The notes beneath the pieces are model-generated. The model was given only the letters and a program-made list of their open reading frames with translations. It did not search any database and had not been told where the DNA came from. A program made the translations under genes and the position numbers. Below are positions 11,571 to 64,000 of a stretch of DNA of 64,000 nt, in pieces. Within the stretch, counting starts at the first letter, position 1. The number at the start of each line of letters is the position of its first letter. Source of the stretch: a virus; the IMG/VR virus record IMGVR_UViG_3300037468_000262, positions 1 to 64,000 of that record; one strand, 5' to 3'.

Positions 11571-11615
11571 CCTTGAGTTTACTTAGTTTCGGCCTACGCT
11601 AAGCTAAATGTGAAT

Positions 11616-11687
11616 GCCCTGGTAGCTCAGTGGAAGAGCAGCGACCTTCTAAGTCGTCGGTCGGGGGTTCAAATCCCTCTCAGGGTG
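11616..11687 (+). tRNA. tRNA-Arg(TCT)
   Basis: GCCCTGG/TCAGGGT acceptor, D arm GCTC/GAGC, anticodon stem GCGAC/GTCGT with loop CTTCTAA giving TCT, and T loop TTCAAAT. No insert and no encoded CCA. It decodes AGA/AGG, which are often rare host codons. Confidence 0.9.
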
Positions 11688-11727
11688 TCGGTTGCCTTGG
11701 CAACCTTATCAAACAACAGCATAACAA

Positions 11728-11926: not shown

Positions 11927-11928
11927 TT

Positions 11929-12018
11929 GGGCGTGTGGTGTAAGGTAGCACAGGGTCCCTTATACAGACCTCTCCGGCAGATTACCGGCTAGTTAGGGTT
12001 CGATTCCCTACGCGCCTA
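11929..12018 (+). tRNA. tRNA-like gene with enlarged anticodon-variable region; identity unresolved
   Basis: Acceptor GGGCGTG/CGCGCCT, D arm GTGT/GCAC and T arm TAGGG TTCGATT CCCTA are clear. Between D and T arms lie 41 nt plus base 26, instead of about 22. GGGTC can pair with GACCT around a 9-nt loop, or GGTCC with AGACC around CTTATAC (anticodon TAT). An extra hairpin CCGG-CAGATTA-CCGG precedes the T arm. It may be an unusual long-variable-arm tRNA or another insert type; CAGCAAT is absent. Confidence 0.6.
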
Positions 12019-12109
12019 TTTTATATTGGGTAATAATGACCAGGGTTTAGGCCCTTCTCACTAACACCCTATTACCACTCTAAAAATAACAACAATTAAA
12101 ACATAAAAA

Positions 12110-13827: not shown

Positions 13828-14718
13828 GTGAAACTCGAAGCTGTTATTGTTTGCGTCAACTACTCTGACTTTTTGGCTCATACCCTACCAAGCACTCGAA
13901 ATCAGTTTAATAAGTTTGTAGTCGTTACCGATACTAAGGATAACGATACTAAGAAGCTATGCGAATACTACAACGTAGAATGTGTTCAGACAGACGTATT
14001 CTATGAAGGTAGAGACGCATTCAATAAAGGCAAAGGAATCAATGCCGGTTTAGAACGATTGGACCTTGACGGCTGGGTCATTCACTTAGATTCAGATATT
14101 TACTTACCGCCTCAAACACGGTCAATTCTGGAGAATTTGCCCCTAGAGAATGGGAAAATCTACGGGGCTGACCGTCTAATGTGCCCTGGCTACGAAGAGT
14201 GGTTGAGATTTCTAGATAAACCCTCCCCTATCCAAGACTCTTGGATTTTTATCCACCCGACTAGGTTCCCAGTCGGAGTCCGAATAGCAGAATACAAATC
14301 TTGGCACGGAGGTTATGAGCCCATTGGTTACTTCCAGTTATGGAATCCAAACGGATCAGAAATTTACAGTTACCCAGATAAGCATGGATTTGCCGACCGC
14401 ACAGATGTTCTGCACTGCAAAAAGTGGCCCCGAGAAAAAAGGGAATTGCTTCCTGAAATTCTCGTTATTCACTTAGAAAGCGAAGCCGGAATCGGCCTAA
14501 ACTGGAAGGGCAGAAAGACCCCTATGTTCGGTCCCAAGGTTTCCTTACCTGTCTTATCTTGGTTGGACAAATTATTCTTATTCCTGGATAAATTAAGTAA
14601 GTGTGGTTACAAGGCTAACCTTAAAGCTTCAGGGAAATCAAAGAAAGGGAAACCAAGTGAGTTGAAACGGGGGGGTCCATTAGATAAATCATTGGAAGAG
14701 TGGCTGAGCGGCCGATAG
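13828..14718 (+). CDS. GT-A fold glycosyltransferase-like protein, 296 aa
   Basis: EAVIVCVNYSDFLAHTLPST at the N-terminus is the first strand-loop of a family 2-like fold, and VIHLDSDIYLPP at residues 85-100 is the DxD metal/nucleotide-sugar motif. GGYEPIGYFQLW and VIHLESEAGIGLNWKGRKT follow. The start is GTG behind a TAAAAT -10 and a GAGGG/CCCTC hairpin. Acceptor unknown; in a phage with base-modifying enzymes, a hydroxymethylated base is one possibility. The last eight codons overlap tRNA-Ser. Confidence 0.7.
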   Translation: MKLEAVIVCVNYSDFLAHTLPSTRNQFNKFVVVTDTKDNDTKKLCEYYNVECVQTDVFYEGRDAFNKGKGINAGLERLDLDGWVIHLDSDIYLPPQTRSILENLPLENGKIYGADRLMCPGYEEWLRFLDKPSPIQDSWIFIHPTRFPVGVRIAEYKSWHGGYEPIGYFQLWNPNGSEIYSYPDKHGFADRTDVLHCKKWPREKRELLPEILVIHLESEAGIGLNWKGRKTPMFGPKVSLPVLSWLDKLFLFLDKLSKCGYKANLKASGKSKKGKPSELKRGGPLDKSLEEWLSGR

Positions 14719-14778
14719 CAGCAGTTTCGAAAACTGCCGAGGGTGAAACCTCCGGGGGTTCGAATCCCTCTTCTTCCT
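14694..14778 (+). tRNA. tRNA-Ser(CGA)
   Basis: GGAAGAG/TTCTTCC acceptor, anticodon stem GCAGT/ACTGC with loop TTCGAAA (anticodon CGA), a long variable arm with GAGG/CCTC, and T loop TTCGAAT. Its 5' end lies inside the 3' end of the glycosyltransferase gene, so that gene's last residues (LEEWLSGR) are tRNA sequence. Confidence 0.9.
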
Positions 14779-18945: not shown

Positions 18946-19599
18946 ATGGACTACTTCGACCTGTACTACTCATACCTTTCCAAGTGTGAAAAGAGTAATT
19001 GGATGAATCTTAGGGACCCTAATCATGACGATATGGAGTGGAATCACACTCTGCCCCAGTGCATATTCAAGGGTCATGGACCAGGTCAGTGGCTAACTAT
19101 GGAGCAACATGCAATTGCTTCGGCGTTGCAGACGTTGGCGTTTGAGCATGACGTGATTTGTGGTTGGCACTGGAAATACTTGCCGGAAGAACTGAGAAAG
19201 AAAACAAAAGAGGTGGTTAGCCGCGTAAAAAGCGAACGCATAACAGGAATAAATAATCACCAATACGGGAAACCTCACACACAAGAAACGAAAGAAAAAA
19301 TAGCAAGAACCCTTTCCAATGGGGCGGCAGACGGTTTCAATCGAAAAGGTAAGCTTCACCCCATGTACGGAAAAAGCCATAATCCCGAGTCGAAAAGAAA
19401 AATCTCTGAATCCATGAGAGGAGATAAAAACCACAATTACGGTAAACAAATGTCTCAAAAGCAGAAAGACGAAATTTCCCTAACGAAAAAGAAAAGGTTT
19501 AAATGTTTAGTTACAGGATTTATTAGCAGTTTTTCGGGTTTATCTAAATACCAGAATAGTAGGAGGATAGACACTTCACTTCGCATTCAAATCAACTAG
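18946..19599 (+). CDS. Free-standing homing endonuclease with NUMOD3 repeats, 217 aa
   Basis: Residues 27-65 (MEWNHTLPQCIF, then LTMEQHAIAS) look like an HNH/His-Me core. The remainder carries three NUMOD3-type DNA-binding repeats, GINNHQYGKPHTQETKEKI, HPMYGKSHNPESKRKIS and NHNYGKQMSQKQKDEIS. Its A-rich base composition differs from the neighbours, consistent with a mobile gene between the phosphatase and the exonuclease. Confidence 0.8.
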   Translation: MDYFDLYYSYLSKCEKSNWMNLRDPNHDDMEWNHTLPQCIFKGHGPGQWLTMEQHAIASALQTLAFEHDVICGWHWKYLPEELRKKTKEVVSRVKSERITGINNHQYGKPHTQETKEKIARTLSNGAADGFNRKGKLHPMYGKSHNPESKRKISESMRGDKNHNYGKQMSQKQKDEISLTKKKRFKCLVTGFISSFSGLSKYQNSRRIDTSLRIQIN

Positions 19600-19600
19600 T

Positions 19601-20521
19601 ATGAAACGTCTTTTATTGATTGACACCTCTGCGTTATTTTTCCGCTCTCGCTCTGCGTTGACGCGAACAATGGGAGAAATGGTCACAACATACGGGTCCC
19701 CGGTCACCGGAACGTTCGGTTTCCTAAACTCTTTATTTGCCATACTTGCAAAGTACGATTACTCTTCGGTTGTACCTTGCGCTGAAGGAGGGAATAACTG
19801 GAGAAAACGTGAATCTAACACCTACAAGGTTAATCGGGATACTGCAGGTGCTGTACATTATACTGATCAAAGTTTGTTACTTGAAGAAGTTCTGCCCACC
19901 CTTGGTATGAATGTGTCGAAAGTTGAGGGGTTTGAAGCGGATGATGTGATTGCTCACATTTCAAGAAACTCGTCAGCATACGATGAAGTTCATGTGTGCA
20001 GTTGCGATCGTGACCTGCTACAACTTGTTACCAACAGAGTGAAAGTTTTGTTGTTCAGCTCCTCTAAAAAAATGGAGTTAGTGGACATTGATTGGGTGTT
20101 GAATAATGAGGGTGTGTACCCCTCAGAAATTAAGTTCAAAAAATCTCTGTGTGGTGATAAATCAGACAACGTTTCAGGTATCCCTAAAATCGGGAACAAG
20201 ACCGCTGTGAAAATTATCGAGGAGTGCCGCTCTGAAGGGCCCAGAGAAGGCTTCTCGATCGCAGATCGGATCACTTTCCATCCGAAAGTTGTATCAAACG
20301 CCTCAACTTTCCTCGGAAATTTGCGTCTCGTTACCTTAGAAAACGATGTTCCAGATCTCTCGTGGTACGCTTCGTCCCCTCCTATTGAATCACACGTTAA
20401 AGCGTTATTTGAAGGGCTTGAGTTCAAGTCATATTTGAAACCTACCCGGTTGGGTAAAATCTTGAAAGCCCTCAAGGTTTTGACGAATGAGACTAGTAGC
20501 AGTTCAGCTCCTAACCCATGA
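19601..20521 (+). CDS. 5'-3' exonuclease / flap endonuclease, 306 aa
   Basis: LLLIDTSALFFRSRSAL starts the PIN-like N domain; KVEGFEADDVIAHIS (about 106-120) and VHVCSCDRDLLQLV (about 128-141) carry the acidic metal ligands, and CGDKSDNVSGIPKIGNKTA (about 184-202) is the helix-hairpin-helix. This matches the PolA N-terminal or T4/T5 exonuclease that removes RNA primers and flaps. It would complement the Pol gamma-like polymerase, which lacks this domain. Confidence 0.85.
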   Translation: MKRLLLIDTSALFFRSRSALTRTMGEMVTTYGSPVTGTFGFLNSLFAILAKYDYSSVVPCAEGGNNWRKRESNTYKVNRDTAGAVHYTDQSLLLEEVLPTLGMNVSKVEGFEADDVIAHISRNSSAYDEVHVCSCDRDLLQLVTNRVKVLLFSSSKKMELVDIDWVLNNEGVYPSEIKFKKSLCGDKSDNVSGIPKIGNKTAVKIIEECRSEGPREGFSIADRITFHPKVVSNASTFLGNLRLVTLENDVPDLSWYASSPPIESHVKALFEGLEFKSYLKPTRLGKILKALKVLTNETSSSSAPNP

Positions 20522-26679: not shown

Positions 26680-28161
26680 ATGGTAATAGAAAATGCAAGG
26701 CAGACCGCTGCGGCAGTCTGTGATAAAAATATCGAATGCGACAATAGCTGCTCGGTTAGTGAAACCGTTCTCTGTGACTTGCGTTCTCGCCCCGCCCCAC
26801 GCAGGATCAACCTCGACGCACTTTACAAATGCGACCCGAAAGATTACATCGGCTATTTTGCTGACGAAACTTCATACGACAATCTCATTCAAGAAGACTG
26901 CGACGTTTACGTTGCCGGAGTCAAAGTTGTCGCCTTCCGTAAGTCCCTGTTCCCGAAGCTGAAGGAAGGTTCCAAGGGCGATCCGAAGACTTGGGAATAC
27001 TTTCGCTGGGCAGCTCGCGATCTTTACTCGGACCAGCGCGGTCTTGTTGCCGGTCGAGAACTTACCACGGATCTTGAAATCAGGGTCACGAACGGAATCG
27101 TGAACTTTCTTAAGAAGGCCATGGCTGGTCAAGTTACCGAAGTTGAAGAGGCTCTGAAAATTGTTAGCCTCTCCCCAGACCATGGTAAGCTCACGGTTAG
27201 AATCACAGAAGTCAAGAAAGACTACCCGGAAATTGCCAAAGCTCTTGAACCTATCGAGGCAGAACTTCGCAAGAAAGCAACAACCGAAGAAAGAAAAGTA
27301 GAGCTGAAGAAGGCGAAGGGAGAAGAACTTGCAAAGTGGTTCCCAACCTGGCTGTCGCAAACCTGGGCTGGTGCGAAGGATAAAGAGGCTGAAGCCAAGA
27401 GAGCTGATGACAGGTACATTAGCAAGCAGCTACGCTCAAACAAATGCTATTCTAACGTTCTTGGGGCTTTCGATAGAGGGGCAAGAAACCCTTACGGTCG
27501 CTTGACCGCTACCACCCTTAAAAACTACGATGGTTTCGTGGGCCATACAGACATTTATCAGACTGCGTGTGCAGCACTGAAGGAAACCCTGAACACCGAG
27601 GAAAACCCTCGCTGGGATCGCCTTCACAACCGATTCGGCAACGTGAAAGACCCGCACTACAACCTTTTCGGTACGGTGTTTACCGCCCTGACACTAAACT
27701 GGAACTTCCGCTGTGCAATGCACTATGACGGGAACAATTGCGAAGGGGGTATTGCCGTTCTTACTGCAATGACTCAGGGCGAATACGACGGTCATTACCT
27801 GGTGTTCCCAGAAATCCGCTGCGCCTTTGACCTTCGTGACGGGGACTTCATTGCCGGTGACAACCAAGGTTTGATCCATGGTAACACAGCGATGATTCCG
27901 AAAACCTCTGACGCTGAACGGGTCTCTTTCGTTTTCTATTCTCGTGAGCGTATGACCCTGCTTGATGATATGAAGTGCGAAGATTGCCGCCGCGATTTCA
28001 TGAAGTACGCCGCTGAAAACTATACTCAGTACGGCAAGGGACACAAAACCTGGAACGGCGTGTGGCAAGGAATGTGGAAGTCTTCAGAATGGATGAAATT
28101 CAAAGTATTTAATGGAGCGGAGCGTTGCTCAAACACCAACTACTGGGGAACTGAAAATTAA
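26680..28161 (+). CDS. TET/JBP-family dioxygenase, copy 1 (493 aa)
   Basis: MHYDGNN near residue 347 gives the HxD pair, EYDGHYLVFPEIRCAFDLR follows, then RDGDFIAGDNQGLIHGN with the distal His near 400 and AERVSFVFYSR with the 2-oxoglutarate-binding Arg. This is the JBP/TET signature of Fe(II)/2OG enzymes that hydroxylate the methyl of thymine or 5-methylcytosine in DNA. The N-terminal 140 residues are extra to the core, and CEDCRRDF may bind metal. A second, shorter copy follows at 29164. Confidence 0.8.
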   Translation: MVIENARQTAAAVCDKNIECDNSCSVSETVLCDLRSRPAPRRINLDALYKCDPKDYIGYFADETSYDNLIQEDCDVYVAGVKVVAFRKSLFPKLKEGSKGDPKTWEYFRWAARDLYSDQRGLVAGRELTTDLEIRVTNGIVNFLKKAMAGQVTEVEEALKIVSLSPDHGKLTVRITEVKKDYPEIAKALEPIEAELRKKATTEERKVELKKAKGEELAKWFPTWLSQTWAGAKDKEAEAKRADDRYISKQLRSNKCYSNVLGAFDRGARNPYGRLTATTLKNYDGFVGHTDIYQTACAALKETLNTEENPRWDRLHNRFGNVKDPHYNLFGTVFTALTLNWNFRCAMHYDGNNCEGGIAVLTAMTQGEYDGHYLVFPEIRCAFDLRDGDFIAGDNQGLIHGNTAMIPKTSDAERVSFVFYSRERMTLLDDMKCEDCRRDFMKYAAENYTQYGKGHKTWNGVWQGMWKSSEWMKFKVFNGAERCSNTNYWGTEN

Positions 28162-29163: not shown

Positions 29164-30342
29164 GTGGAATTTCGGCTAGGATCTCGTTTAACTAAGGGGC
29201 AAGTTGCCTTCTTCGCCGGTGCTTCTGTGGGTTTGATTACCACGCTTGCCCAAGCGCGAGAGGCCCTAGAAAGCTCGGATGAACTTACTAGCAAGACGCT
29301 CAAGATCAAGTACATAAAGAAAGACTATCCAGAACTCGCGGAAAGAATGAAACCCTTGGAGGCAGAAATTCGAACCCTAGGCGCTGACGACCCCAGACTA
29401 GAAAGTCTGAGAAACCAGAGAAGAGATCAACTTTGGAGCTGGTTTGAGCCTTGGTTGTTGGAAACCTGGTTGCCCTCAGAAAACAAAGTAGAAGAAGTTA
29501 AAAAGGTTCTAAGCACGTACATAAGTTCCCAGTTGAACTTTAACCACTGCTACAGTAACGTCCTTGGGGCGATTGACCGTGGGGCGAGATTTCCCTACGG
29601 TCGTTTGAGCGGAACCACTCAAAGGTACTACGAACAGTTCTCAAAGTACAGGGACATTTATTACGAAGCTTGCGAAGGTTTCCGGCATACTTTCCCGGAA
29701 ACATGGAGCAAAGTTAAGGAAGTAATTTCGAGGGTTAAAGATCCCAACTACAACTTGTTCGGCACTGCCTTTACGAGTGTGACTCTAAACTTCAATTTCA
29801 AGACTGCCTACCACGTTGACAAGAACAATTTGAAAGGAGGTCTGGCCGTCTTAACTGCTTTCACAAAGGGTGTTTATGAAGGCCACTACTTGGTGTTTCC
29901 CGAAGTGAGATTGGCCTTCAACTTAAGAGATGGGGACTTTATCGTAGGGGACACTCAAACCTTGCTTCATGGTAACAGCCCCATGACAAAACTTACTGAA
30001 GATGCTGAGCGGGTTTCTCTGGTTTTCTACTCACGAGAGAACATGACCCGATTGGACGATCTTGAGTGCGAAGAATGCCGAAAACAGTTCATGAAGTTTT
30101 CACTTCAGACTCTGAAAGAACGAGGCAAAGATCACAAAGATTGGAGGGGCGTGTGGCAAGGAATGTGGACTTCTCAAGAATGGCTAGACTTTCGAAAAGA
30201 AAGAAACTTGGAATACTGTTCAAACTCCAATTGGCAGCTTTCCTCGCCGTACGAGAACGAAGTTACGAAAGAGGTGAAGCTGTTCAAGGATGATCCCGGC
30301 GAAGGATGGAAACTCGTACAAGTGTTTACACAAGGTCGGTGA
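29164..30342 (+). CDS. TET/JBP-family dioxygenase, copy 2, N-terminally shortened (392 aa)
   Basis: Every core element of copy 1 is present: YHVDKNN (HxD), VYEGHYLVFPEVRLAFNLR, RDGDFIVGDTQTLLHGN and AERVSLVFYSR. The first recognisable match begins at about residue 115 of copy 1, because a TAG (29110-29112) closes the frame upstream and GTG 29164 is the likely start. The catalytic core looks intact, so it may be active with a different target. It ends inside module 8. Confidence 0.75.
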   Translation: MEFRLGSRLTKGQVAFFAGASVGLITTLAQAREALESSDELTSKTLKIKYIKKDYPELAERMKPLEAEIRTLGADDPRLESLRNQRRDQLWSWFEPWLLETWLPSENKVEEVKKVLSTYISSQLNFNHCYSNVLGAIDRGARFPYGRLSGTTQRYYEQFSKYRDIYYEACEGFRHTFPETWSKVKEVISRVKDPNYNLFGTAFTSVTLNFNFKTAYHVDKNNLKGGLAVLTAFTKGVYEGHYLVFPEVRLAFNLRDGDFIVGDTQTLLHGNSPMTKLTEDAERVSLVFYSRENMTRLDDLECEECRKQFMKFSLQTLKERGKDHKDWRGVWQGMWTSQEWLDFRKERNLEYCSNSNWQLSSPYENEVTKEVKLFKDDPGEGWKLVQVFTQGR

Positions 30343-31605: not shown

Positions 31606-31617
31606 CTCTTGGCCGCA

Positions 31618-32385
31618 ATGAAAGACCCAACCTTCCTTCTTCAATCCGGTGGCCCGCTACCAACCGAAAAAATTGCCTGCAGCTTCTCGTGTTACCCTAT
31701 AAAGTATTGCTCTTTTACAGACATTGAGAAGTTGGACCCTAAGGAATCCTTGACTCGATTCGTTCCAGTCGGATCCGTAGAGTTCGTTAAAGCCTACAGC
31801 CAGCATATTGGAATTAGACTACCTGAGGACTTCTCCTACGGGATTTGCGATGGTCAACTTGACCAGTTCCTAATGAGGCCTATCCGAAAAGGCACTTACG
31901 GCGAGGCAACTCTAACTGATTTCGTCAAGCCTATTGCAATTAAGATGTTTACAGGCAATGTTAAGGGTCACATTGAGCTAAGTTCAGCGTGCCCCTCCCC
32001 TTCTGAGGATACCCCCGTTTGGATTTCCCCAGCCGTACCATTTGGAGCTGAGTTCCGCTTCTACATTCACGATTTTATCAGGGGTGGTAAAATTCAAGGG
32101 TGGTCTCGATACGATGATTCAAACATGGAATGTCCGGAGCCTGACATCGGCCTGGTTGAAGCCGTAATGAAAGAGTTGGAAGAAAACATTGCTCCGGGTG
32201 CGTACACGGTGGACATCGGATGGAGACCCGACTTGGAACGCTATTGCTTGGTAGAAATCAATGATGCGTGGGCGCTCGGTTTGTATGAAAACTCAGATTT
32301 CCAGTCGAACCCTCCAACCCGACAGCAGTACGCTGACATGTTGGTTTCCCGTTGGAGACAAATTCTTTTCTGTAGCTTGGTATAA
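31618..32385 (+). CDS. R2K-clade ATP-grasp ligase, 255 aa
   Basis: FGAEFRFYIHDFIRGGKIQG near residue 140, YTVDIGWRPDLERYCLVEIN near 200 and the arginine/lysine pattern in MRPIRKGTYGEA fit the R2K group of ATP-grasp enzymes (DUF4343-type). They form amide or peptide bonds through an acyl-phosphate. It is the first of four overlapping genes with a glutamine amidotransferase and two amidoligases, a combination known from predicted peptide-tagging operons. Confidence 0.7.
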   Translation: MKDPTFLLQSGGPLPTEKIACSFSCYPIKYCSFTDIEKLDPKESLTRFVPVGSVEFVKAYSQHIGIRLPEDFSYGICDGQLDQFLMRPIRKGTYGEATLTDFVKPIAIKMFTGNVKGHIELSSACPSPSEDTPVWISPAVPFGAEFRFYIHDFIRGGKIQGWSRYDDSNMECPEPDIGLVEAVMKELEENIAPGAYTVDIGWRPDLERYCLVEINDAWALGLYENSDFQSNPPTRQQYADMLVSRWRQILFCSLV

Positions 32386-33044
32386 TGTGCGCCTTATTTG
32401 GATGTGACCTGGAAGAAGTCACTCAAGACAACATTCAAACAATACAACGCATCGCCCTTGAATCCCAGGTCAGGGGTAAACATGCAACAGGTATTTCCTA
32501 CATTGGGAAAAACGGTCTTGAAACAATCACTGCGCCTGTTTGTGCACAGGAATTTCTGAACATCTATGACATAAATGATTGTGTCTCAGATGACTGTTTA
32601 ACTTTGATTGGCCATTGCCGCTATTCTACCTCTGACATCAGGTACAATCAACCGCTAACGAACGGCTCTCTTGCCATCGCCCACAACGGTGTCATTGAGC
32701 AGTCGCCCCCTGAAACTTGGACAAAGTTTGGGTACGAACTTGAAACTACCAACGATTCAGAACTTGTACTTCGCGCTATCGAAAATAAAGAACAACCCTT
32801 GAAAAAGTTTCCTGAAGCTTCTATGGCTGTATTAGAGCTGAGAGAGAATGGTTCCATGCGCTATTATCGCAATGGAAAAAGACCTTTGTGGAAAAGTGAA
32901 GTCGAAAACGGTTTCTTCCTCACCTCAACGAAAGACATTGCCTTGAGGGCGGGATTGAAGAATCCAGTCCGCTGCCTTCCGGGTTTCCTTTACCAGGGCA
33001 AGGCTGCAACTAAAATAATTGAAGTTGAAGAGCTGATCGCATGA
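32385..33044 (+). CDS. Class II glutamine amidotransferase (Ntn hydrolase), 219 aa
   Basis: Cys2 directly after the initiator Met (MCALFG) is the nucleophile. GHCRYSTSDIRYNQPL near 68-83 and LAIAHNGVIEQ near 88-98 are the glutamine-binding motifs seen in PurF, GlmS and AsnB. There is no synthetase domain, so it probably hands ammonia to, or trims amides for, the flanking ligases. Start and stop overlap its neighbours. Confidence 0.8.
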   Translation: MCALFGCDLEEVTQDNIQTIQRIALESQVRGKHATGISYIGKNGLETITAPVCAQEFLNIYDINDCVSDDCLTLIGHCRYSTSDIRYNQPLTNGSLAIAHNGVIEQSPPETWTKFGYELETTNDSELVLRAIENKEQPLKKFPEASMAVLELRENGSMRYYRNGKRPLWKSEVENGFFLTSTKDIALRAGLKNPVRCLPGFLYQGKAATKIIEVEELIA

Positions 33045-34866: not shown

Positions 34867-35248
34867 TCTGCTGGGCTACTGCGCGATGCACTTCTTCACC
34901 CTTGTGCCTGAACGGATCTTCAACGTTCCAGTTTCGAACCTTCAAGGGATCAACAAAGAAGTTCTTATTTATGCGGTCTACATGCAAATGAGACATGCAA
35001 ATGACTTGATCAGCCCAGTCCAACAATTCTTGGGAGTAAGGTTGTGCGATGTGTTGCTCACCACTGTAACCCATCTCTGCCAAAACCCGTCTCATTTTAG
35101 GAGCCATTCTTGAGTGGTCCACGGCTTGTTTTGAAGTCCCACACGAATCTACTTTGTACAAACCCGTATTATGAAAACTAAGGATAACATGAGCAGCAGC
35201 GCTTCTATTTATATTACCGGTGCAACAAAACAAAACATTAGAGACCAT
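34832..35248 (-). CDS. Low-molecular-weight protein tyrosine phosphatase-like, 138 aa
   Basis: VLFCCTGNINRSAAAHVIL (about 5-23) is the CX5R phosphate loop with the nucleophilic Cys, and NVEDPF near 108-113 holds the general-acid Asp. VDSCGTS and the remaining layout agree with LMW-PTP. Targets include phosphotyrosine and arsenate in other members. It is the only convincing minus-strand gene in the window and overlaps genes on both sides. Confidence 0.8.
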   Translation of the reverse strand: MVSNVLFCCTGNINRSAAAHVILSFHNTGLYKVDSCGTSKQAVDHSRMAPKMRRVLAEMGYSGEQHIAQPYSQELLDWADQVICMSHLHVDRINKNFFVDPLKVRNWNVEDPFRHKGEEVHRAVAQQIKELIFHHFLS

Positions 35249-36250
35249 GTTGATTACCGATTGTTAGAGAATAGAAGGGAGGGTTTTTTGCAGTGGTGGA
35301 TTACCTCAACGGCGGCACTCGACACAGACCCTAGTCTATGGATGATGCGGTACTTGAACGACCGTTATGAGCATAGCACCGAAGAGAAACTTTGGTTCGC
35401 TTGGCTGTTCCACACATATAATTTACCCACATCATGGACAGTTAAGCAGGAATTTCCTGATGAAGAGTTAGCAAGTGTAGAAAGATTCGACACTTTCGTT
35501 GGTGAAAATTACCCCAGAATTCGTCATGAAAAAGACACTAAGTGGTCGCGTGGACACCTGGCAGCAATGTATGCGAGCTACCACGATTGGGTTGGTGAGA
35601 GTACTCAGAGAGACAAATTCTGGGAACTGTGCCAAGGCTCCCCCGAAGAAAACTTCTGGCGTCTTTGGAACTTAGTCATAGAGAAATTCTTCAAGTTCGG
35701 TCGGTACACCACCTTCTTTTACTTACAAACTCTTAAGCAAACGTGTAATTTGCCGTTAGACTGCCCCTCTCTATTTCTGAGCGATTACTTAGGTAGTAAA
35801 AGCCATAGAAACGGTCTTTGCTTCGCGGCTGGAAAAGATGACTGGGTCAATCAAAAGTTGACTCCGGCAGAGTACGCTTGGCTAGAGGGCTTCGGTGCTG
35901 ACTTGCTTGTAGAAGCACATTCGCGGTGGCCCGACTTCAAAGGAGACATGGACAACTTCGCCCTTGAAACCTGTCTGTGCTCCTACAAAAAAGTTTTCCG
36001 GACAGCTAACGGCCGTTATATCAATTATTACAACGATCGAGTCTCTGAGCAAATTGCCAAGGCAGAAGGAGATGGTTGGTCAGGTATCGATTGGAATGTT
36101 TTGCATCAGTGCCGCAGCGAGTGCTCTAACGGGCGTCTTCGTAAAGAAGACAAAATTGACAAAACAAAAATGCACCTCTTCGTTGATCAAGGAACTTTTC
36201 ACTTCCTTTGGCATGGCAGCGAACTAACTCCGCTTACTGGGAACCTGTAG
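35171..36250 (+). CDS. Amino acid:DNA transferase-like (ADDT-type) protein, 359 aa
   Basis: REGFLQWWITSTAALDTDPS, then LNDRYEHSTEEKLWFAWLF and YNLPTSWTVKQEFP, resemble the ADDT/glutamyl-putrescinyl thymine transferase group of phage hypermodification enzymes (compare EExxWFAFL...TS). These replace a phosphate on 5-hydroxymethyluracil in DNA with an amino acid or polyamine. The kinase expected to make that phosphoryl-hmU lies directly downstream. Recognition is from motif memory, so family assignment is moderate. Start could be ATG 35171 or 35189. Confidence 0.6.
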   Translation: MKTKDNMSSSASIYITGATKQNIRDHVDYRLLENRREGFLQWWITSTAALDTDPSLWMMRYLNDRYEHSTEEKLWFAWLFHTYNLPTSWTVKQEFPDEELASVERFDTFVGENYPRIRHEKDTKWSRGHLAAMYASYHDWVGESTQRDKFWELCQGSPEENFWRLWNLVIEKFFKFGRYTTFFYLQTLKQTCNLPLDCPSLFLSDYLGSKSHRNGLCFAAGKDDWVNQKLTPAEYAWLEGFGADLLVEAHSRWPDFKGDMDNFALETCLCSYKKVFRTANGRYINYYNDRVSEQIAKAEGDGWSGIDWNVLHQCRSECSNGRLRKEDKIDKTKMHLFVDQGTFHFLWHGSELTPLTGNL

Positions 36251-36283
36251 GGCTATACTCATCTTGTAACACACTCACACACA

Positions 36284-36771
36284 TGAAACTAACTCACTAC
36301 TTTGGAGTGCCCGGTTCCGGGAAGACGACGTTGATGCGACAAAAACTCGAAATTCTCCGTTCCGTTGAAGCAGACGAGTTTGTCAAAGAGGGTTTCATAG
36401 CCTACCATAAATTCACCCAACAAAAAACTATCGTCCTAGGGTGCTACGACGAAAGAACTTTTTCTGGCACTGACACGTGGTCGAAATCGGCTGGCCCCAA
36501 GTTTCGCCAATGGCTACTCGATAATTCTGAAAGGTATGTGGGTTGGGAGGTCTTTTCGGAAGGAGAGAGGCTGTCGAACAGCCCTACCTTAGATGCAATG
36601 TTCGCCACGGGGGACATGACGCTTGTTCTTGTTCAAGTTAGCGACGAAGAACTTGAGAAAAGAAGAGCAGCCAGGAATAACACCCAAAACGAGACTTGGA
36701 TGAAAGGTATGCAAACTCGGATGAACAACCTTGCCCAAAAGTACACTCATACCGTACTCATCAACGATTGA
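36284..36771 (+). CDS. 5-hmU DNA kinase-like P-loop protein, 162 aa
   Basis: YFGVPGSGKTTLM (about 6-18) is the P-loop; FSGTDTWSKSAG (about 61-72), EVFSEGERLSN and the C-terminal RAARNNTQNETWMKG...RMNNL follow the pattern of the 5-hmdU DNA kinase family (GTD-S and EGDR motifs, with RRxxR-N near the end). That family phosphorylates 5-hydroxymethyluracil in DNA. It sits 33 nt after the ADDT-like gene. Confidence 0.65.
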
Positions 36772-52918: not shown

Positions 52919-53971
52919 ATGAACATGAAACCCACAAAGGCAACAATCCTAACTCTTACGGTTGCAATGCTGGTAACGGCATCTCCTGCTTTTGCCGCGT
53001 CTGCCGGTCGCATCAGTGGTGGCAGTTTCCGTAGCTCCCCTAGTTACAGCCGTCCAAGTTACAGCCGTCCAAGTTACAGCCGCCCCAGCTATAGCCGTCC
53101 CAGCCCTTCTCCGAGCTATAGCTATTCGCCACCGCGAGTGTACACTCCCCTGCCTACCACTAGACCTTCTTACAACCCTCCAAGTCGGTCTAGCACGAAC
53201 ATTATCGTTGTGCCAGACTTGACTCCAAATGTTGCACCGGTTATCCCCTACTCCTCGCCTTCACAGGTAACCGCAGTTAGACAAGAGCCTGCTAATCCCG
53301 CGTTCTTTTTGACGCTGCTTGTTACCATGGGTGTGACTGCTATTGCAGTCTTTCTCTTGTTCGGAGGTTGGGAAGATTTCGTAGGACCCTGGTTAAGCTC
53401 TCAAAAAGAAAAGTTCAAGAAACTAACAGTAGTGCGGCAAAGAGTGGCCCTACTCGCTTCTGCCAAAGATATCCAAACCGATTTGATTCGGATGGCTGAA
53501 CGGGGGAATACAGGTAGTTCCTACGGTCTTGCCAAGATCCTTCAAGAGACGACTCTTGCTCTTCTCCGCCACCCTGACAAAGTCGTGTACGCTTGGAGTG
53601 ACAGCCACACAGTTTCCCCTGGTGGCGCAGAGATCCTCTTTAATCAGTTCTCGATGGAAGATCGTTCCCGAGCGTCTGAAGAAACTTTGACGAATGTGGA
53701 CGGTCGTGTCTCAAAGAGTAAGGAGAAAGCACACGAAAAAACCCAAGGGAACGAATACATCCTTGTAAATGTTCTGGTGGTTACCAATGAGAATCTGAAC
53801 CTGAAGCCATCCGACTCACAAGAAAACCTGAAGTCAAATCTGGTAGCCCTGGGCTCTATTTCTCATGAGGACCTGGTCGCCCTTGAGATTATCTGGCAAC
53901 CGGAAGATGAATACGACGTTCTCTCGAAAGAGGAACTCTTGACCTTGTACCCCGACTTGAACATCCTGTGA
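52919..53971 (+). CDS. DUF1517 family membrane protein, 350 aa
   Basis: A signal peptide (to about ASPAFAAS, residue 28) is followed by five SYSRP tandem repeats and a Pro/Ser-rich stretch. A membrane helix lies at about residues 127-146 (FFLTLLVTMGVTAIAVFLLF). The cytoplasmic domain has LLASAKDIQTDLIRMA, ILQETTLALLRHPDKVVYAW, AEILFNQFSMEDRSRASEET and the YPDLNIL end, the full DUF1517 pattern of cyanobacteria and plastids. It is probably captured from the host. Confidence 0.85.
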   Translation: MNMKPTKATILTLTVAMLVTASPAFAASAGRISGGSFRSSPSYSRPSYSRPSYSRPSYSRPSPSPSYSYSPPRVYTPLPTTRPSYNPPSRSSTNIIVVPDLTPNVAPVIPYSSPSQVTAVRQEPANPAFFLTLLVTMGVTAIAVFLLFGGWEDFVGPWLSSQKEKFKKLTVVRQRVALLASAKDIQTDLIRMAERGNTGSSYGLAKILQETTLALLRHPDKVVYAWSDSHTVSPGGAEILFNQFSMEDRSRASEETLTNVDGRVSKSKEKAHEKTQGNEYILVNVLVVTNENLNLKPSDSQENLKSNLVALGSISHEDLVALEIIWQPEDEYDVLSKEELLTLYPDLNIL

Positions 53972-58012: not shown

Positions 58013-60034
58013 ATGACAAACACTATTAATGTAAACCTGGCACAGCAAGTCCAGGAGGATTACCTAGCTTATTCCTTAAGCGTAATCGTGGGTAGGGCAT
58101 TCCCCCGATACACAGACGGCTGTAAGACTATTTCTCGGCGTATCATGACAGCTATGAGATGGCTTAACCTAAAGCCCGAGGGACGCTATATGAAAAGCGC
58201 CAGGGTTGAGGGTGAAGTTATGGGTAAATTAAGCCCCCACGGAGGCAGTTATAGTTCCATTGTAACTTTGGCTGCCCCTTGGAATAACATGGTTCCTTTA
58301 GTGGATGGGCATGGAAATTGGGGGTCCTCGACAGACCAAGCCGCGAGTTCCAGGTACACTGAATGCAAACTATCTCCCTTCGCCTGGGACTGCCTCTTAG
58401 ACGACTCAGACACTTGGGAAACGACACCAAACTACGACGGCTCTTTGCAAGAGCCTGTGGAGCTGAATGTTAAGATCCCGTACGTTCTGCTCAATGGGCA
58501 AGAAGGCATTGGAGTAGGCTACGCCTGTAAAATAGCTTCCCACAACCTCCGATCTATTGTTGAAGCAACAAAGTTGGTGTGCGAAGACTCAGTCACAGAA
58601 AAAGCGTATGCCGAAAACCTTCGCAAAGCTCGAGAAATTCTCCTACCCGACTTCCCCACTGGCACCCAGATCGTTAAAGATGAGCAACTAGAGCAGTACT
58701 CCAAGACAGGTTCGGGTAGCATTCGTTGCATGGCGCGTGTAGAACAGGGTCTTCAAAAAAGAGATGGCAGGGCCAAAGATCGCGTTACCCTTTCTTTCAC
58801 ACACTTACCCCCCGGAACTAACCCTGAAAAACTAGGCGAACAAATTAAAAATGAGCTGGAAAAGGGTAGGATAGAGGGTGTTGCCGAGGTCAATGACCTC
58901 TCCGACCTTTCAGGAGACTGCGTTCAAATTATTGCTAAACCAGGTGTTGATGCAGAAAAACTTCGTAATCAACTCTACTCATACACAGACCTCGACACCA
59001 AGTTCTCTGCAAAAACCCTGGTGATCGATGGTATCAAACCTGTTGAGCTTTCACCAGTTCAAATTGTAGAGAAATGGGTGAGTTGGAGGCTCGACCGCCT
59101 TCAAGTGAAGTTTAGTAGAGAGCTTGACCTGAAGAGTGCTCGCTTACACATTGTTCAAGGGTTGCTCAAAGCCATTGACAAGATGGACTTGATTATCAAG
59201 AAGATCCGAGCAGCGAAGGACAAAGCCGAGGCGAAAGCTGCCCTGATGGCAACACCCTTCAAGTTCACAGACAAGCAAGCAGAAGCGATCCTAGAGATGC
59301 GTCTGAGGCAGCTTACTGGATTGGATCAGAACGATCTTACTTTTGAAGGAAACTCCCTGCAAGCGAGAATCGACGAGCTTGACGAGCTGGTTAGCGATGA
59401 AACCAGCGGCATCACCGCTCGCAAACTCTACATGCTGGAAGAGCTGAGTGAGCTCGGGAAACGACACGGAGAGGCTCGCAGGAGCCCCCTCGTGGAGCCC
59501 CCGGTGGGAGAGGTGGCCCCTAGCCCAGGCGAGAGGGCGAAGCGCCCTGCAGCCGCTCCGAAGCCCCGCTTCCTCAAGGTTGACGCCAAGAAGGGCATGG
59601 TTGAGCAAGCGAAGGGTCCTCGGGGTGCCCTCGTTGTTGATGCCAAAGAGAAAGTCATCCTCATGACTGAAGACGGAATGCTCAAGAAAGTTCCGGCAAA
59701 CTTTAAGGGAACCATCTCAACTTCTTACTCTGCCGTGTCCTTAGCTAAGCGAGAGGCCGACGTCTCCAAGCGGAAATACCTGGTTGTATTTGAACTTGAG
59801 GGGCAACTTAAGGCTCTGACTCTTAACGGCGAAGACCTTTGCAGAGCAACAAGTAAAGGCAAGAAGTGGTTACCCGAAGGTGCAACACTGAGACATTTCG
59901 GAGAAGGCGACTACACTGTGAACTGGGTGTCCACGCGGAAGAAAGCAGTGAAGCTTAACTTAAATGTTAAAGCGGGTAAGCCCGGTGGCAAAGGTGTCAA
60001 GGTCGCCAACATCTCGGAGGTGAAACTAGCCTAG
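58013..60034 (+). CDS. Type II DNA topoisomerase subunit A (GyrA/ParC/gp52-like), 673 aa
   Basis: QEDYLAYSLSVIVGRAFPRY (about 13-32) opens the breakage-reunion domain and SSRYTECKLSPFAW near 113-126 holds the catalytic Tyr. SPHGGSY, NWGSS and GIGVGYAC are conserved. DKQAEAILEMRLRQLTGLDQ near 420 is the usual end of the core. A short beta domain replaces the full GyrA propeller. Residues about 485-525 are coded by GC-rich island C. No subunit B gene is in the window. Confidence 0.9.
   Translation: MTNTINVNLAQQVQEDYLAYSLSVIVGRAFPRYTDGCKTISRRIMTAMRWLNLKPEGRYMKSARVEGEVMGKLSPHGGSYSSIVTLAAPWNNMVPLVDGHGNWGSSTDQAASSRYTECKLSPFAWDCLLDDSDTWETTPNYDGSLQEPVELNVKIPYVLLNGQEGIGVGYACKIASHNLRSIVEATKLVCEDSVTEKAYAENLRKAREILLPDFPTGTQIVKDEQLEQYSKTGSGSIRCMARVEQGLQKRDGRAKDRVTLSFTHLPPGTNPEKLGEQIKNELEKGRIEGVAEVNDLSDLSGDCVQIIAKPGVDAEKLRNQLYSYTDLDTKFSAKTLVIDGIKPVELSPVQIVEKWVSWRLDRLQVKFSRELDLKSARLHIVQGLLKAIDKMDLIIKKIRAAKDKAEAKAALMATPFKFTDKQAEAILEMRLRQLTGLDQNDLTFEGNSLQARIDELDELVSDETSGITARKLYMLEELSELGKRHGEARRSPLVEPPVGEVAPSPGERAKRPAAAPKPRFLKVDAKKGMVEQAKGPRGALVVDAKEKVILMTEDGMLKKVPANFKGTISTSYSAVSLAKREADVSKRKYLVVFELEGQLKALTLNGEDLCRATSKGKKWLPEGATLRHFGEGDYTVNWVSTRKKAVKLNLNVKAGKPGGKGVKVANISEVKLA
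59462..59570. repeat. GC-rich palindromic island C inside the topoisomerase gene
   Basis: Sharply GC-rich, with AGGGCG-AAG-CGCCCT (59534-59548) and GGCTCGCAGGAGCC. In frame, it codes a Pro/Ala/Arg linker between the core and the C-terminal domain, so it is tolerated. Confidence 0.5.
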
Positions 60035-60113
60035 AGACAGGAAACCGGGTAAAATGGTTGTGAGGCTTTACTGAAAGCCCCCCCAGCTAAACTCTAATTA
60101 GTTGAAAAGAGCC

Positions 60114-60653
60114 ATGTCCATAGTCTACCCTGTCTCTCGGTTACTCGCTAACCCTCGACTGTTTCTTGCCATCTCAAACTATCTGGGAGGAGTTTTCGAT
60201 TCGGGCGTCTTAAGAGATGTTTTTTACGATTTGTTAGAAGCAGAGGTTAATGAATTGCCCGACGAGGAATGTGAATTCTTAGCCGAAGAAGTTTGCTTTG
60301 AAGTTGAAGACGAAGGAAGGGTGTTTAACATATACTTCGATACCGGGTCTTCAATAAAAGTAGAGGCAACCGAAGAAGGTTACAAACCTCAAATCACATC
60401 GGAGTTCGAAATGGCTACTGCTTCAGCAGTTAATAATCGACTTATTTGCGCGATTGAGGAATCCCACCCAGAGCTCAAAGATGATATCGCTTTTGAGCAC
60501 CCTCCAACCCCTGGTAACGGGTTTCTGAGTTCTAAAGACGGTTTTTCCGGAAGTTTCCACCTTCGCTCAGACCCGAACAAAAAATATGCGTTTACTATAA
60601 CGATAGTAGACCCTGACACTGATCACTTAGAAGCCGAAGTTCGACCCCTTTAA
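60114..60653 (+). CDS. Hypothetical acidic protein, 179 aa
   Basis: Start ATG 60114 preferred over TTG 60102. Acidic, with beta-rich centre (DEGRVFNIYFDTGSSIKVEA). Unknown. Confidence 0.6.
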   Translation: MSIVYPVSRLLANPRLFLAISNYLGGVFDSGVLRDVFYDLLEAEVNELPDEECEFLAEEVCFEVEDEGRVFNIYFDTGSSIKVEATEEGYKPQITSEFEMATASAVNNRLICAIEESHPELKDDIAFEHPPTPGNGFLSSKDGFSGSFHLRSDPNKKYAFTITIVDPDTDHLEAEVRPL

Positions 60654-61574: not shown

Positions 61575-64000
61575 ATGAGAACCAGCGAACTCGGATATCC
61601 TGTCCTTTCAAGCACTCTTCACCAGAAAGTGTTTGGCGACGAAAAGATGGCGCCCATGAGTACCTCTGCTCGCCGCAAGGCCGAGAGCCTTCTGAAGCAA
61701 TTCGACATCTCAGTTCCAGTAGATCACCCTGATAACTTGTATGATGGCCCACTGCCACTACCTAGTTTGAAGGGTGATTCTTTGCACGAGCACTTTGAGA
61801 GAATTGCAACAGAGCAAGTAGGGGTATATAAAGAACTTGGAGACAGTCTGTCCAAGTGCGTACTTCCGAAACTCCCGTCAACTTCAGACTTTGTTTATCA
61901 AGCCGGTTGGACACGCTACGAGTGGCTTGAAGAAGAAGGCAAGTTTCTGAGAGAGTCTGTGCCATTCCCCACAGAAGAAGCCTTCACATTTGACACAGAG
62001 ACCTTCGTGAAAGCAGGGGCATTCCCCATCATCGGCACTGCCCTTAGTGAAAAGGCGACTTATATTTGGCTAGCATCCGAACTCATTGACCCTACCCTAC
62101 CGGAAGAGCAGTGGGACCAACGAGACCTTATCCCTATTGGGGGAAACAGGTTTGTAGCGGGGCACAACATTAGCTACGACCGAGTGCGGTCCCGAGAAGG
62201 TTACTCTCTTGATCGCAATAAACCGGAAAACTTTTACTTCGACACCCTGTCTGCCCACATTGGGGTGTCCGGTTTGGCCGCTGGACAAAGGTGGTTGTAC
62301 CTTCTTGCTGCCAAAGACCCCGATAATCTAACAGAAGAAGAAAAGAGAAAGTTGAGGTATGCCCCGAAGTGGCTCGACGAGGGTTCCACGAACAGTCTTG
62401 TTCAATGCTACAACTTCCATGTATACGAGGTTAGGAAGTACTTTGGTGATGAGACGGTTCGCCCCCTGAACCAAGGGGACAAGAAAGTCCGAGACATATT
62501 CGTAGATGCTACACACATTTCTCAAATTACTGCTGTTCTTGAAAAAGCAGTTGAGTATGCCGTAAGAGACGCATTTTACACTGCGGAACTTTTCCAAGCT
62601 CTGTGGCCTAAATACCTTGACAGTACCCCTTCTATGGTGGGTCTTTGCGGACATTACCACTTAAACGGTTCCGTTGTCCCTCTAGTGGATGACTGGGCTG
62701 AGTGGATCCGTAATACTGAGAAAGTTTTCCACGAGCACAATCAGGAAATGACTGAGTTGTGTAGAAAACTTGTTTGGAAGACATATGAAGAGTGGAAAGG
62801 AATCTTCGAAGGTGAGGAAGATCCTGAGGAAGGGTTGAGGCAAGCTATGGCTTGGGTGAAACTTGACCCTTGGGTGTCCCAACTTAACTGGGAGGTAGCA
62901 AGTCGAAAAGGTAAGTATGCCTGGGTTCCAACTTGGATGCGCCCTTTCATAAAGGATCCTGATCAACACATCGGCGTTAAGTCTCAACTGGCCCACTTAC
63001 TATTGAGGCTTAAGTACGAAGGGTCCTACATGGTTCTCACCAAGGAAGACGGGTGGTGCTATTACGACGAGTCTCACAAACTTACTAAGATCCCCCACCC
63101 TAAGGGCAACGGAGATAATGTCGGGGGAGTTTTGTCAAAAGACTTCGTTCAAGACATGGAAACAGGTAAACTGAGTAGTGATCTACCTGAAGCGAAAAGA
63201 GCACTTGACATTTCCAACTCAATCTCTTACTGGACATCCGTTCGTAAGCGTGTGATGGATAGGATTTTCCTTGATGTTAAGAACCCTCACGGTACTGACA
63301 CCCTTGTTACTCTGCCCGAAATTCTGTGTCACGGCACCGTTACACGGAGAACGGTCGAGAGTCTCATGGCAACAATGTGTTCCACGAAAAACTGGCGCAT
63401 TGGGACCGAGCTGAAAACTAGGGTCCAGGCACCAGAAGGGTGGAAAATCGTGAGCGCTGACTACGATGGCCAAGAACTTCAAATTGCTTCCATCTACAGC
63501 GATAAATGGGAGGGAGGCTTCGTAGGCTGCTCTCCGATGGGTTATAACGTCTTGTCCGGTTCGAAGGAAAACGGAACAGATCCGCACACAGCTTTGGCCA
63601 GGGCCATTCTTCCTGAGCTGTATAAAGGTCTCGTTTGGGAAAGAAAGCTGGGCGTATGCTACAAGTTTGGAACTGAACCTCTGACAACCCCCGGTTGCGT
63701 AAAATTCAGTGACTATTGGCTTTGTCCCATTGACGACAAGAAAGACAAACTTCTGAAAAAAGCGAGAGATCTTAGCAAGATCGTTGGCTTCGCAACCCTA
63801 TACGGGGGAAGTGTAAGAGCCCTCAGCACTCCGATTCGGAGAACTTTCCCTGAAAAGAAAGAGCGAGAAGTCAAAGACTTTGCCTTGAAAGCTTTGTCTT
63901 CGAAGAAAGGAGTGTTGTCAAATGGGACTTACGAGGGAGGCTCTGACTCAGGTGCCTTCAACTTGATGGAACAAATTTCTATGAGAACGAAAGTTCCTCA
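61575..64000 (+). CDS. DNA polymerase gamma-like family A polymerase (3' partial)
   Basis: FTFDTETFVKAGAF (about 138-151) is exonuclease motif I, VAGHNISYDRVRSREGY (about 194-210) motif II with FDTLSAHIGVSGLAAGQR after it, and YAVRDAFYTAELFQAL motif III. TVTRRTVESLMATM, IGTELKTRVQAPEGW and SADYDGQELQIASIYSDKWE form motif A, and RDLSKIVGFATLYGG the O-helix motif B. Order and wording follow mitochondrial POLG rather than E. coli Pol I or T7. The motif C part lies beyond the window. Start ATG 61575. Confidence 0.9.
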   Translation, partial: MRTSELGYPVLSSTLHQKVFGDEKMAPMSTSARRKAESLLKQFDISVPVDHPDNLYDGPLPLPSLKGDSLHEHFERIATEQVGVYKELGDSLSKCVLPKLPSTSDFVYQAGWTRYEWLEEEGKFLRESVPFPTEEAFTFDTETFVKAGAFPIIGTALSEKATYIWLASELIDPTLPEEQWDQRDLIPIGGNRFVAGHNISYDRVRSREGYSLDRNKPENFYFDTLSAHIGVSGLAAGQRWLYLLAAKDPDNLTEEEKRKLRYAPKWLDEGSTNSLVQCYNFHVYEVRKYFGDETVRPLNQGDKKVRDIFVDATHISQITAVLEKAVEYAVRDAFYTAELFQALWPKYLDSTPSMVGLCGHYHLNGSVVPLVDDWAEWIRNTEKVFHEHNQEMTELCRKLVWKTYEEWKGIFEGEEDPEEGLRQAMAWVKLDPWVSQLNWEVASRKGKYAWVPTWMRPFIKDPDQHIGVKSQLAHLLLRLKYEGSYMVLTKEDGWCYYDESHKLTKIPHPKGNGDNVGGVLSKDFVQDMETGKLSSDLPEAKRALDISNSISYWTSVRKRVMDRIFLDVKNPHGTDTLVTLPEILCHGTVTRRTVESLMATMCSTKNWRIGTELKTRVQAPEGWKIVSADYDGQELQIASIYSDKWEGGFVGCSPMGYNVLSGSKENGTDPHTALARAILPELYKGLVWERKLGVCYKFGTEPLTTPGCVKFSDYWLCPIDDKKDKLLKKARDLSKIVGFATLYGGSVRALSTPIRRTFPEKKEREVKDFALKALSSKKGVLSNGTYEGGSDSGAFNLMEQISMRTKVP

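Follow-up and report, generated by a model that had tools for sequence, protein, structure and literature searches.

A POLG-type DNA polymerase in an uncultivated phage related to cyanophage S-CBWM1

The stretch of viral DNA analysed here (in the following the window, i.e., positions 1-64,000 of a viral record that is 70,656 bases long) encodes a DNA polymerase truly related to POLG, the enzyme that replicates mitochondrial DNA in animals and yeast. This is supported by the family profile, the PDB search, the predicted fold, the catalytic motifs and the tree, which all agree. Judged from its sequence, the gene very probably provides the phage's own replicative DNA polymerase, belonging to the POLG branch of family A. 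A cyanophage POLG is not new as a kind. According to PMC7156551, POLG genes were described for A-HIS1/2 (Chan 2011), S-TIM5 (Sabehi 2012), S-CBWM1 (Xu 2018) and Mic1. The same paper proposes that phage and mitochondrial POLG share a common ancestor, an idea that is also put forward in PMC4928673 and PMC3914683. The POLG link has been in print since 2011, and the present gene by itself confirms a pattern that was proposed in that year. What is added here is a grouping of eukaryotic POLG with the Mic1 enzyme (100/99), which is favoured, with phage monophyly unrejected.

The reading frame of the polymerase starts with an ATG and is still open at the last base of the window, which covers 808 amino acids (aa). 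Within the 70,656-base parent record (G000), it extends to a stop at 64,511 and shows zero internal stops, such that the full protein comprises 978 aa. All five peptides from which the sequence-only reading had recognised the gene are found in this protein (residues 196-210, 223-234, 588-595, 610-622 and 627-635). Table 1 lists the gene, its parts and selected further genes.

Table 1. Positions of the polymerase gene, of its domains and motifs, and of selected further genes within the window.
Feature	Position	Strand	Evidence or remark
POLG-type family A DNA polymerase gene	61575..64000	+	truncated by window end; full gene 61575-64511
N-terminal part and POLG-type 3'-5' proofreading exonuclease	61755..62615	+	PF18136; Exo I D140/E142, Exo II D202, Exo III Y328/D332
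Spacer/thumb, residues 374-507 (134 aa)	62694..63095	+	alignable with yeast Mip1; longer in human POLG
Polymerase motif A, IVSADYDGQELQ, catalytic D629	63447..63482	+	motif alignment
Insert between motifs A and B	63588..63764	+	61 aa, H671-R731; predicted beta strands
Polymerase motif B, ARDLSKIVGFATLYGGS, Phe739 and retained Tyr743	63762..63812	+	motif alignment
GyrA/ParC-type topoisomerase subunit	58013..60034	+	PF00521; 49% identical to S-CBWM1 gp73, same order
Conserved protein of no assigned function, 183 aa, between topoisomerase and polymerase	60102..60653	+	S-CBWM1 gp75 homologue, 27%
Conserved coiled-coil-like protein, 276 aa	60667..61497	+	S-CBWM1 gp76 homologue, 22%
Separate 5'-3' exonuclease / flap nuclease	19601..20521	+	PF02739 and PF01367

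With regard to profile matches, the Pfam profile of the mitochondrial DNA polymerase exonuclease domain (PF18136) covers residues 61-347 with 201.6 bits (E 1.9e-59, cut-off 26.7). The same profile is found in 11/11 phage records with a POLG gene, not in T7 and in 0/14 control prokaryotes. Human POLG is aligned in two stretches (E ~1e-101). In PHROGs, the protein matches phrog_22619, DNA polymerase, with 738.7 bits. The PDB sequence search returns human and mouse POLG with 334-343 bits (human 340), yeast Mip1 with 308.4 and E. coli Klenow with 17.5 bits; T7 polymerase is absent from its results at E 0.1. A BLASTP comparison gives E 4e-108 and 2e-109 for the human and yeast POLG fragments, respectively, and E 0.01 or worse for T7, SP6, BL64, HTVC041P, CVT22, ICP1, Goose and E. 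coli Pol I. When residues 60-497 are used as query, yeast Mip1 ranks first and the alignment runs uninterrupted as far as phage residue 496. Thus, the likeness extends to the stretch that links the exonuclease block with the polymerase block, as had also been proposed.

The likeness is also reflected in the catalytic motifs. When the motifs of 19 phage and two eukaryotic rows are aligned, the catalytic residues of Exo I-III and Pol A-C are all present in the window polymerase (D140, E142, D202, Y328, D332, D629, R731, K735, Y743 and H872-D873-E874) and its motifs match those of human and yeast POLG. The same alignment places the break of the split Mic1 gene inside motif A, and one viral relative (L233) carries a Phe in place of the second Tyr of motif B. 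In 9/19 phage rows, all of the S-TIM5 clade (L029, L124, L125, L130, L200, L204, L210, L233, L235), motif C reads HDS instead of HDE, which alters a conserved position of the catalytic site.

Since the human and yeast rows of this alignment are joined fragments, spacer lengths were taken from pairwise alignments. Here, 72 phage residues (432-505) stand opposite 243 human residues (473-717), such that the human spacer is about 170 residues longer. Judged by this length rather than by coordinates, a human-sized POLG2-binding element would hardly fit into the phage spacer.

Two further differences concern the polymerase domain. First, the window polymerase has Phe739 in motif B, where the human, yeast, Mic1 and S-TIM5 rows show a Tyr. 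The respective human residue is Y951, the position that governs the acceptance of chain-terminating nucleotides (ddNTP). Given Phe739 at this position, the phage enzyme should select against chain terminators. PMC7156551 already notes that the Tyr is missing from A-HIS1/2 and S-CBWM1 at this position. Second, the stretch from motif A to motif B comprises 61 aa, whereas human, yeast, S-TIM5 and several close relatives of the window polymerase have 12. Long stretches of 39-69 aa are also observed for L058, L092, S-CBWM1 and A-HIS1/2. Given this patchy distribution, the insert was probably gained or lost more than once. It amounts to about 50 residues, forms beta strands in the AlphaFold2 model and is possibly an accessory element of the fingers or palm.

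For the prediction of the fold, which had been suggested as a check of the spacer region, AlphaFold2 was supplied with 33 aligned homologues; the target was a homologous protein (L003) that is 98% identical to the window polymerase. The resulting model (pLDDT 84.1, pTM 0.83) superposes on POLG over its whole length, spacer included (about 830 residues, Z up to 39.9). Within the Foldseek results, the first 36 rows are all POLG/Mip1 chains (E 1e-48 to 7e-22), followed by the Pol I of phage G20c (9e-12). VIA-align yields Z values of 25.4-39.9 with 732-839 aligned residues for POLG/Mip1, and Z values of at most 16.2 for Pol theta, apicoplast polymerase, Klenow, T7 and Taq.

An ORF filter retained 210 ORFs (including redundant copies), which form 27 clusters at 80% identity. 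The filter missed some relatives with a differing Exo II motif, of which L200, L204 and L235 were added by hand. Our main tree took in only part of the 27 clusters and holds 24 rows, i.e., 19 phage, 2 eukaryotic and 3 T7-type sequences, where the eukaryotes are represented by human and yeast, both entered as aligned fragments that lack the human spacer. The phage and eukaryotic POLGs are split from the three T7-type outgroup rows at 100/100; a position inside T7 or Pol I clades, which had been named as the outcome speaking against a POLG link, is not seen. A quick 27-row tree with long outgroups also recovers the POLG grouping with an SH-aLRT of 100 versus eight rows that include E. coli Pol I. 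In the 24-row tree, the window polymerase is part of the S-CBWM1 clade and the relatives of S-TIM5 form a second clade. Human and yeast POLG join Mic1 (100/99), and A-HIS1/2 are the next to attach (90/51). The Mic1-eukaryote group is also found at 100/99 in an ingroup-only tree and at 93/86 in a smaller rooted tree.

On these sequence data, eukaryotic POLG would be the sister of Mic1. Since monophyly of the phage sequences could not be rejected (p-AU 0.082 for 9 and 0.124 for 19 phage rows), this placement is favoured rather than demonstrated. Our tentative interpretation, which we hold with slightly less than even confidence, is that eukaryotic POLG is nested within the cyanophage POLG diversity with the Mic1 lineage as its sister, and that the mitochondrial replicase is phage-derived and was recruited alone. 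The latter part is suggested by the 11 POLG phage records, in which neither a T7-type RNA polymerase nor a Twinkle-like helicase was matched. The gene might also have moved in the reverse direction, i.e., cyanophages could have acquired POLG from a eukaryote. This appears rather unlikely to us: the root is uncertain and the two p-AU values leave a phage clade with the eukaryotes outside unrejected, but the best trees set eukaryotic POLG within the phage diversity beside Mic1, and phage POLGs show considerable diversity and occur widely among viral contigs (183 relatives), although neither placement nor spread fixes the direction.

Phage POLGs bear on the question of where the mitochondrial DNA polymerase comes from, being the nearest relatives known for it outside the eukaryotes. 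The window record and about 180 further viral contigs extend the sampling well past the few published phages. More Mic1-like sequences together with more eukaryotes would make the nesting of mitochondrial POLG within the phages testable.

With regard to the role of the enzyme, the single chain combines proofreading (a 3'-5' exonuclease domain) with polymerisation (a palm/fingers domain), and the spacer/thumb between them is short. Given that its catalytic carboxylates are all intact, it should copy the phage DNA with proofreading, an activity we infer from the family. The polymerase has no 5'-3' nuclease domain, and primers would probably be removed by the separate flap nuclease (Table 1). Human POLG works together with POLG2. 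For the phage enzyme, the spacer is too short to accommodate the human one in full and a profile scan of the 11 POLG phage records for one POLG2 domain (see below) gave no match, such that it probably acts without a POLG2-like processivity subunit, as yeast Mip1 does.

The sequence-only reading had further stated that a separate 5'-3' exonuclease and a topoisomerase nearby complete a replication set. The topoisomerase is indeed close by, i.e., a GyrA/ParC-type subunit encoded upstream of the polymerase. The exonuclease exists as well, as its two domain matches confirm, but it is located about 41 kb upstream of the polymerase and hence not in its proximity. A complete set is not supported: profile scans of the 11 POLG phage records, several of which are fragments, yield no match to DnaB_C (PF03796; no T7 row as control), Toprim_2 and T7-type RNA_pol (PF00940; for both, the T7 control is positive), DNA_gyraseB (12/14 controls positive) or HGTP_anticodon (PF03129, only one of the POLG2 domains; controls 14/14). 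Because of these fragments, the negative profile results do not prove that the partners are absent. The window record may be a fragment as well (70.7 kb, with relatives of up to 279 kb), such that missing partners may lie elsewhere. As they stand, the 11 records give no support for a T7-like mitochondrial replisome (POLG, Twinkle and single-subunit RNA polymerase) within one phage.

The helicase result bears on the question of whether the phage carries the polymerase gene as a moron or spare copy and is replicated by the host's or another polymerase. In favour of this, the window record and its relatives yielded no replicative helicase of the DnaB or T7 gp4 type. Nevertheless, we deem it very improbable, since the catalytic residues are all intact, the gene is kept in 11/11 examined records (a set chosen for carrying it) and it is located between topoisomerase and structural genes in S-CBWM1 as well. 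We thus prefer the reading as the phage's own replicative polymerase. Finally, that it is an ordinary T7-like or Pol I-like polymerase whose POLG likeness reflects the general family A fold only can practically be dismissed: the general family A profile (PF00476) matches residues 724-890 with 41 bits and the structures of T7, Taq, Klenow and Pol theta share the core fold (Z ~15-16), but the exonuclease and spacer are POLG-specific and PDB search, BLASTP (E >= 0.01 for T7/Pol I types), structure superposition and the 100/100 tree split rule this assignment out.

A Pfam scan of the window covered 40 ORFs plus the topoisomerase and the next two genes. It reveals a putative cassette for DNA base hypermodification (26680-28161, 29164-30342, 31609-32385, 32385-33044, 35171-36250 and 36208-36771), which comprises two Tet/JBP oxygenases, an R2K ATP-grasp protein, a glutamine amidotransferase domain, an amino acid:DNA transferase (ADDT) and a P-loop nucleotide kinase. 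Tet_JBP is also found in S-CBWM1 and 4/6 large relatives, and not in S-TIM5, A-HIS1, Mic1 and T7. The window furthermore encodes a possibly host-derived DUF1517 (PF07466) protein (52919-53971) and tRNA genes for Arg(tct), Ile(tat) and Ser(cga) at 11615-11689, 11928-12019 and 14694-14778, respectively. Immediately 5' of the 5'-3' exonuclease gene, a gene with three NUMOD3 motifs, as they occur in homing endonucleases, is located (18946-19599).

A tblastn search of 50,697 phage records (E 1e-5) results in 11 matches with 97-100% query coverage each, all of them from cyanophages. Furthermore, 183 IMG/VR contigs encode a POLG relative, of which the best 80 were kept. Scans with A-HIS queries found no further A-HIS-like phages, and the three Mic1-like viral contigs are 96-98% identical to Mic1 and add no depth to the tree. 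Among bacteria and archaea, for which one genome per species was searched, the sole POLG-type match (L109:6001-6984) belongs to a metagenome bin of Microbacteriaceae, in which its contig of 9.6 kb is most likely misbinned phage DNA. Downstream of the window polymerase, PHROGs identifies a tail sheath protein, which points to a myovirus. Given this protein and the match of the polymerase and its upstream genes to S-CBWM1, the window phage is seen as an uncultivated member of the S-CBWM1 lineage. The isolate host of S-CBWM1 is Synechococcus, and the relatives suggest that the host of the window phage is probably cyanobacterial, too.

The closest named relative is S-CBWM1 gp77 (MG450654, annotated as "DNA polymerase gamma"; 2 of the 11 records), with 57.4% identity over 100% of the length. 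Both enzymes share the Phe in motif B and an insert that separates motif A from motif B (48 aa in gp77, 61 in the window polymerase), and the upstream order gyrA-gp75-gp76-polG is common to both phages. They are nevertheless separate species, and the large downstream tail gene of the window phage cannot be aligned with gp84. The DNA polymerase of S-TIM5 (5 records together with three S-TIM relatives) shows the full-length POLG architecture at 34% identity, but it lacks the palm insert and has Tyr in motif B and HDS, not HDE, in motif C. The polg of the Acaryochloris phages A-HIS1/A-HIS2 (3 records, 30-31% identity) is likewise of full-length POLG architecture and has the motif B Phe; it differs by a spacer of 156-158 aa compared with 134, and the A-HIS1 record covers only 55.7 kb. 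Microcystis phage Mic1 (ORF86/ORF85, one record, about 30% identity) also encodes the POLG architecture, but in a split gene, with Tyr in motif B and a tree position next to eukaryotic POLG. Human POLG and yeast Mip1, finally, can be aligned end to end with the window polymerase over exonuclease, spacer core and polymerase domains (28-30% identity) and have the same predicted fold, but they carry Tyr instead of Phe in motif B and no palm insert.
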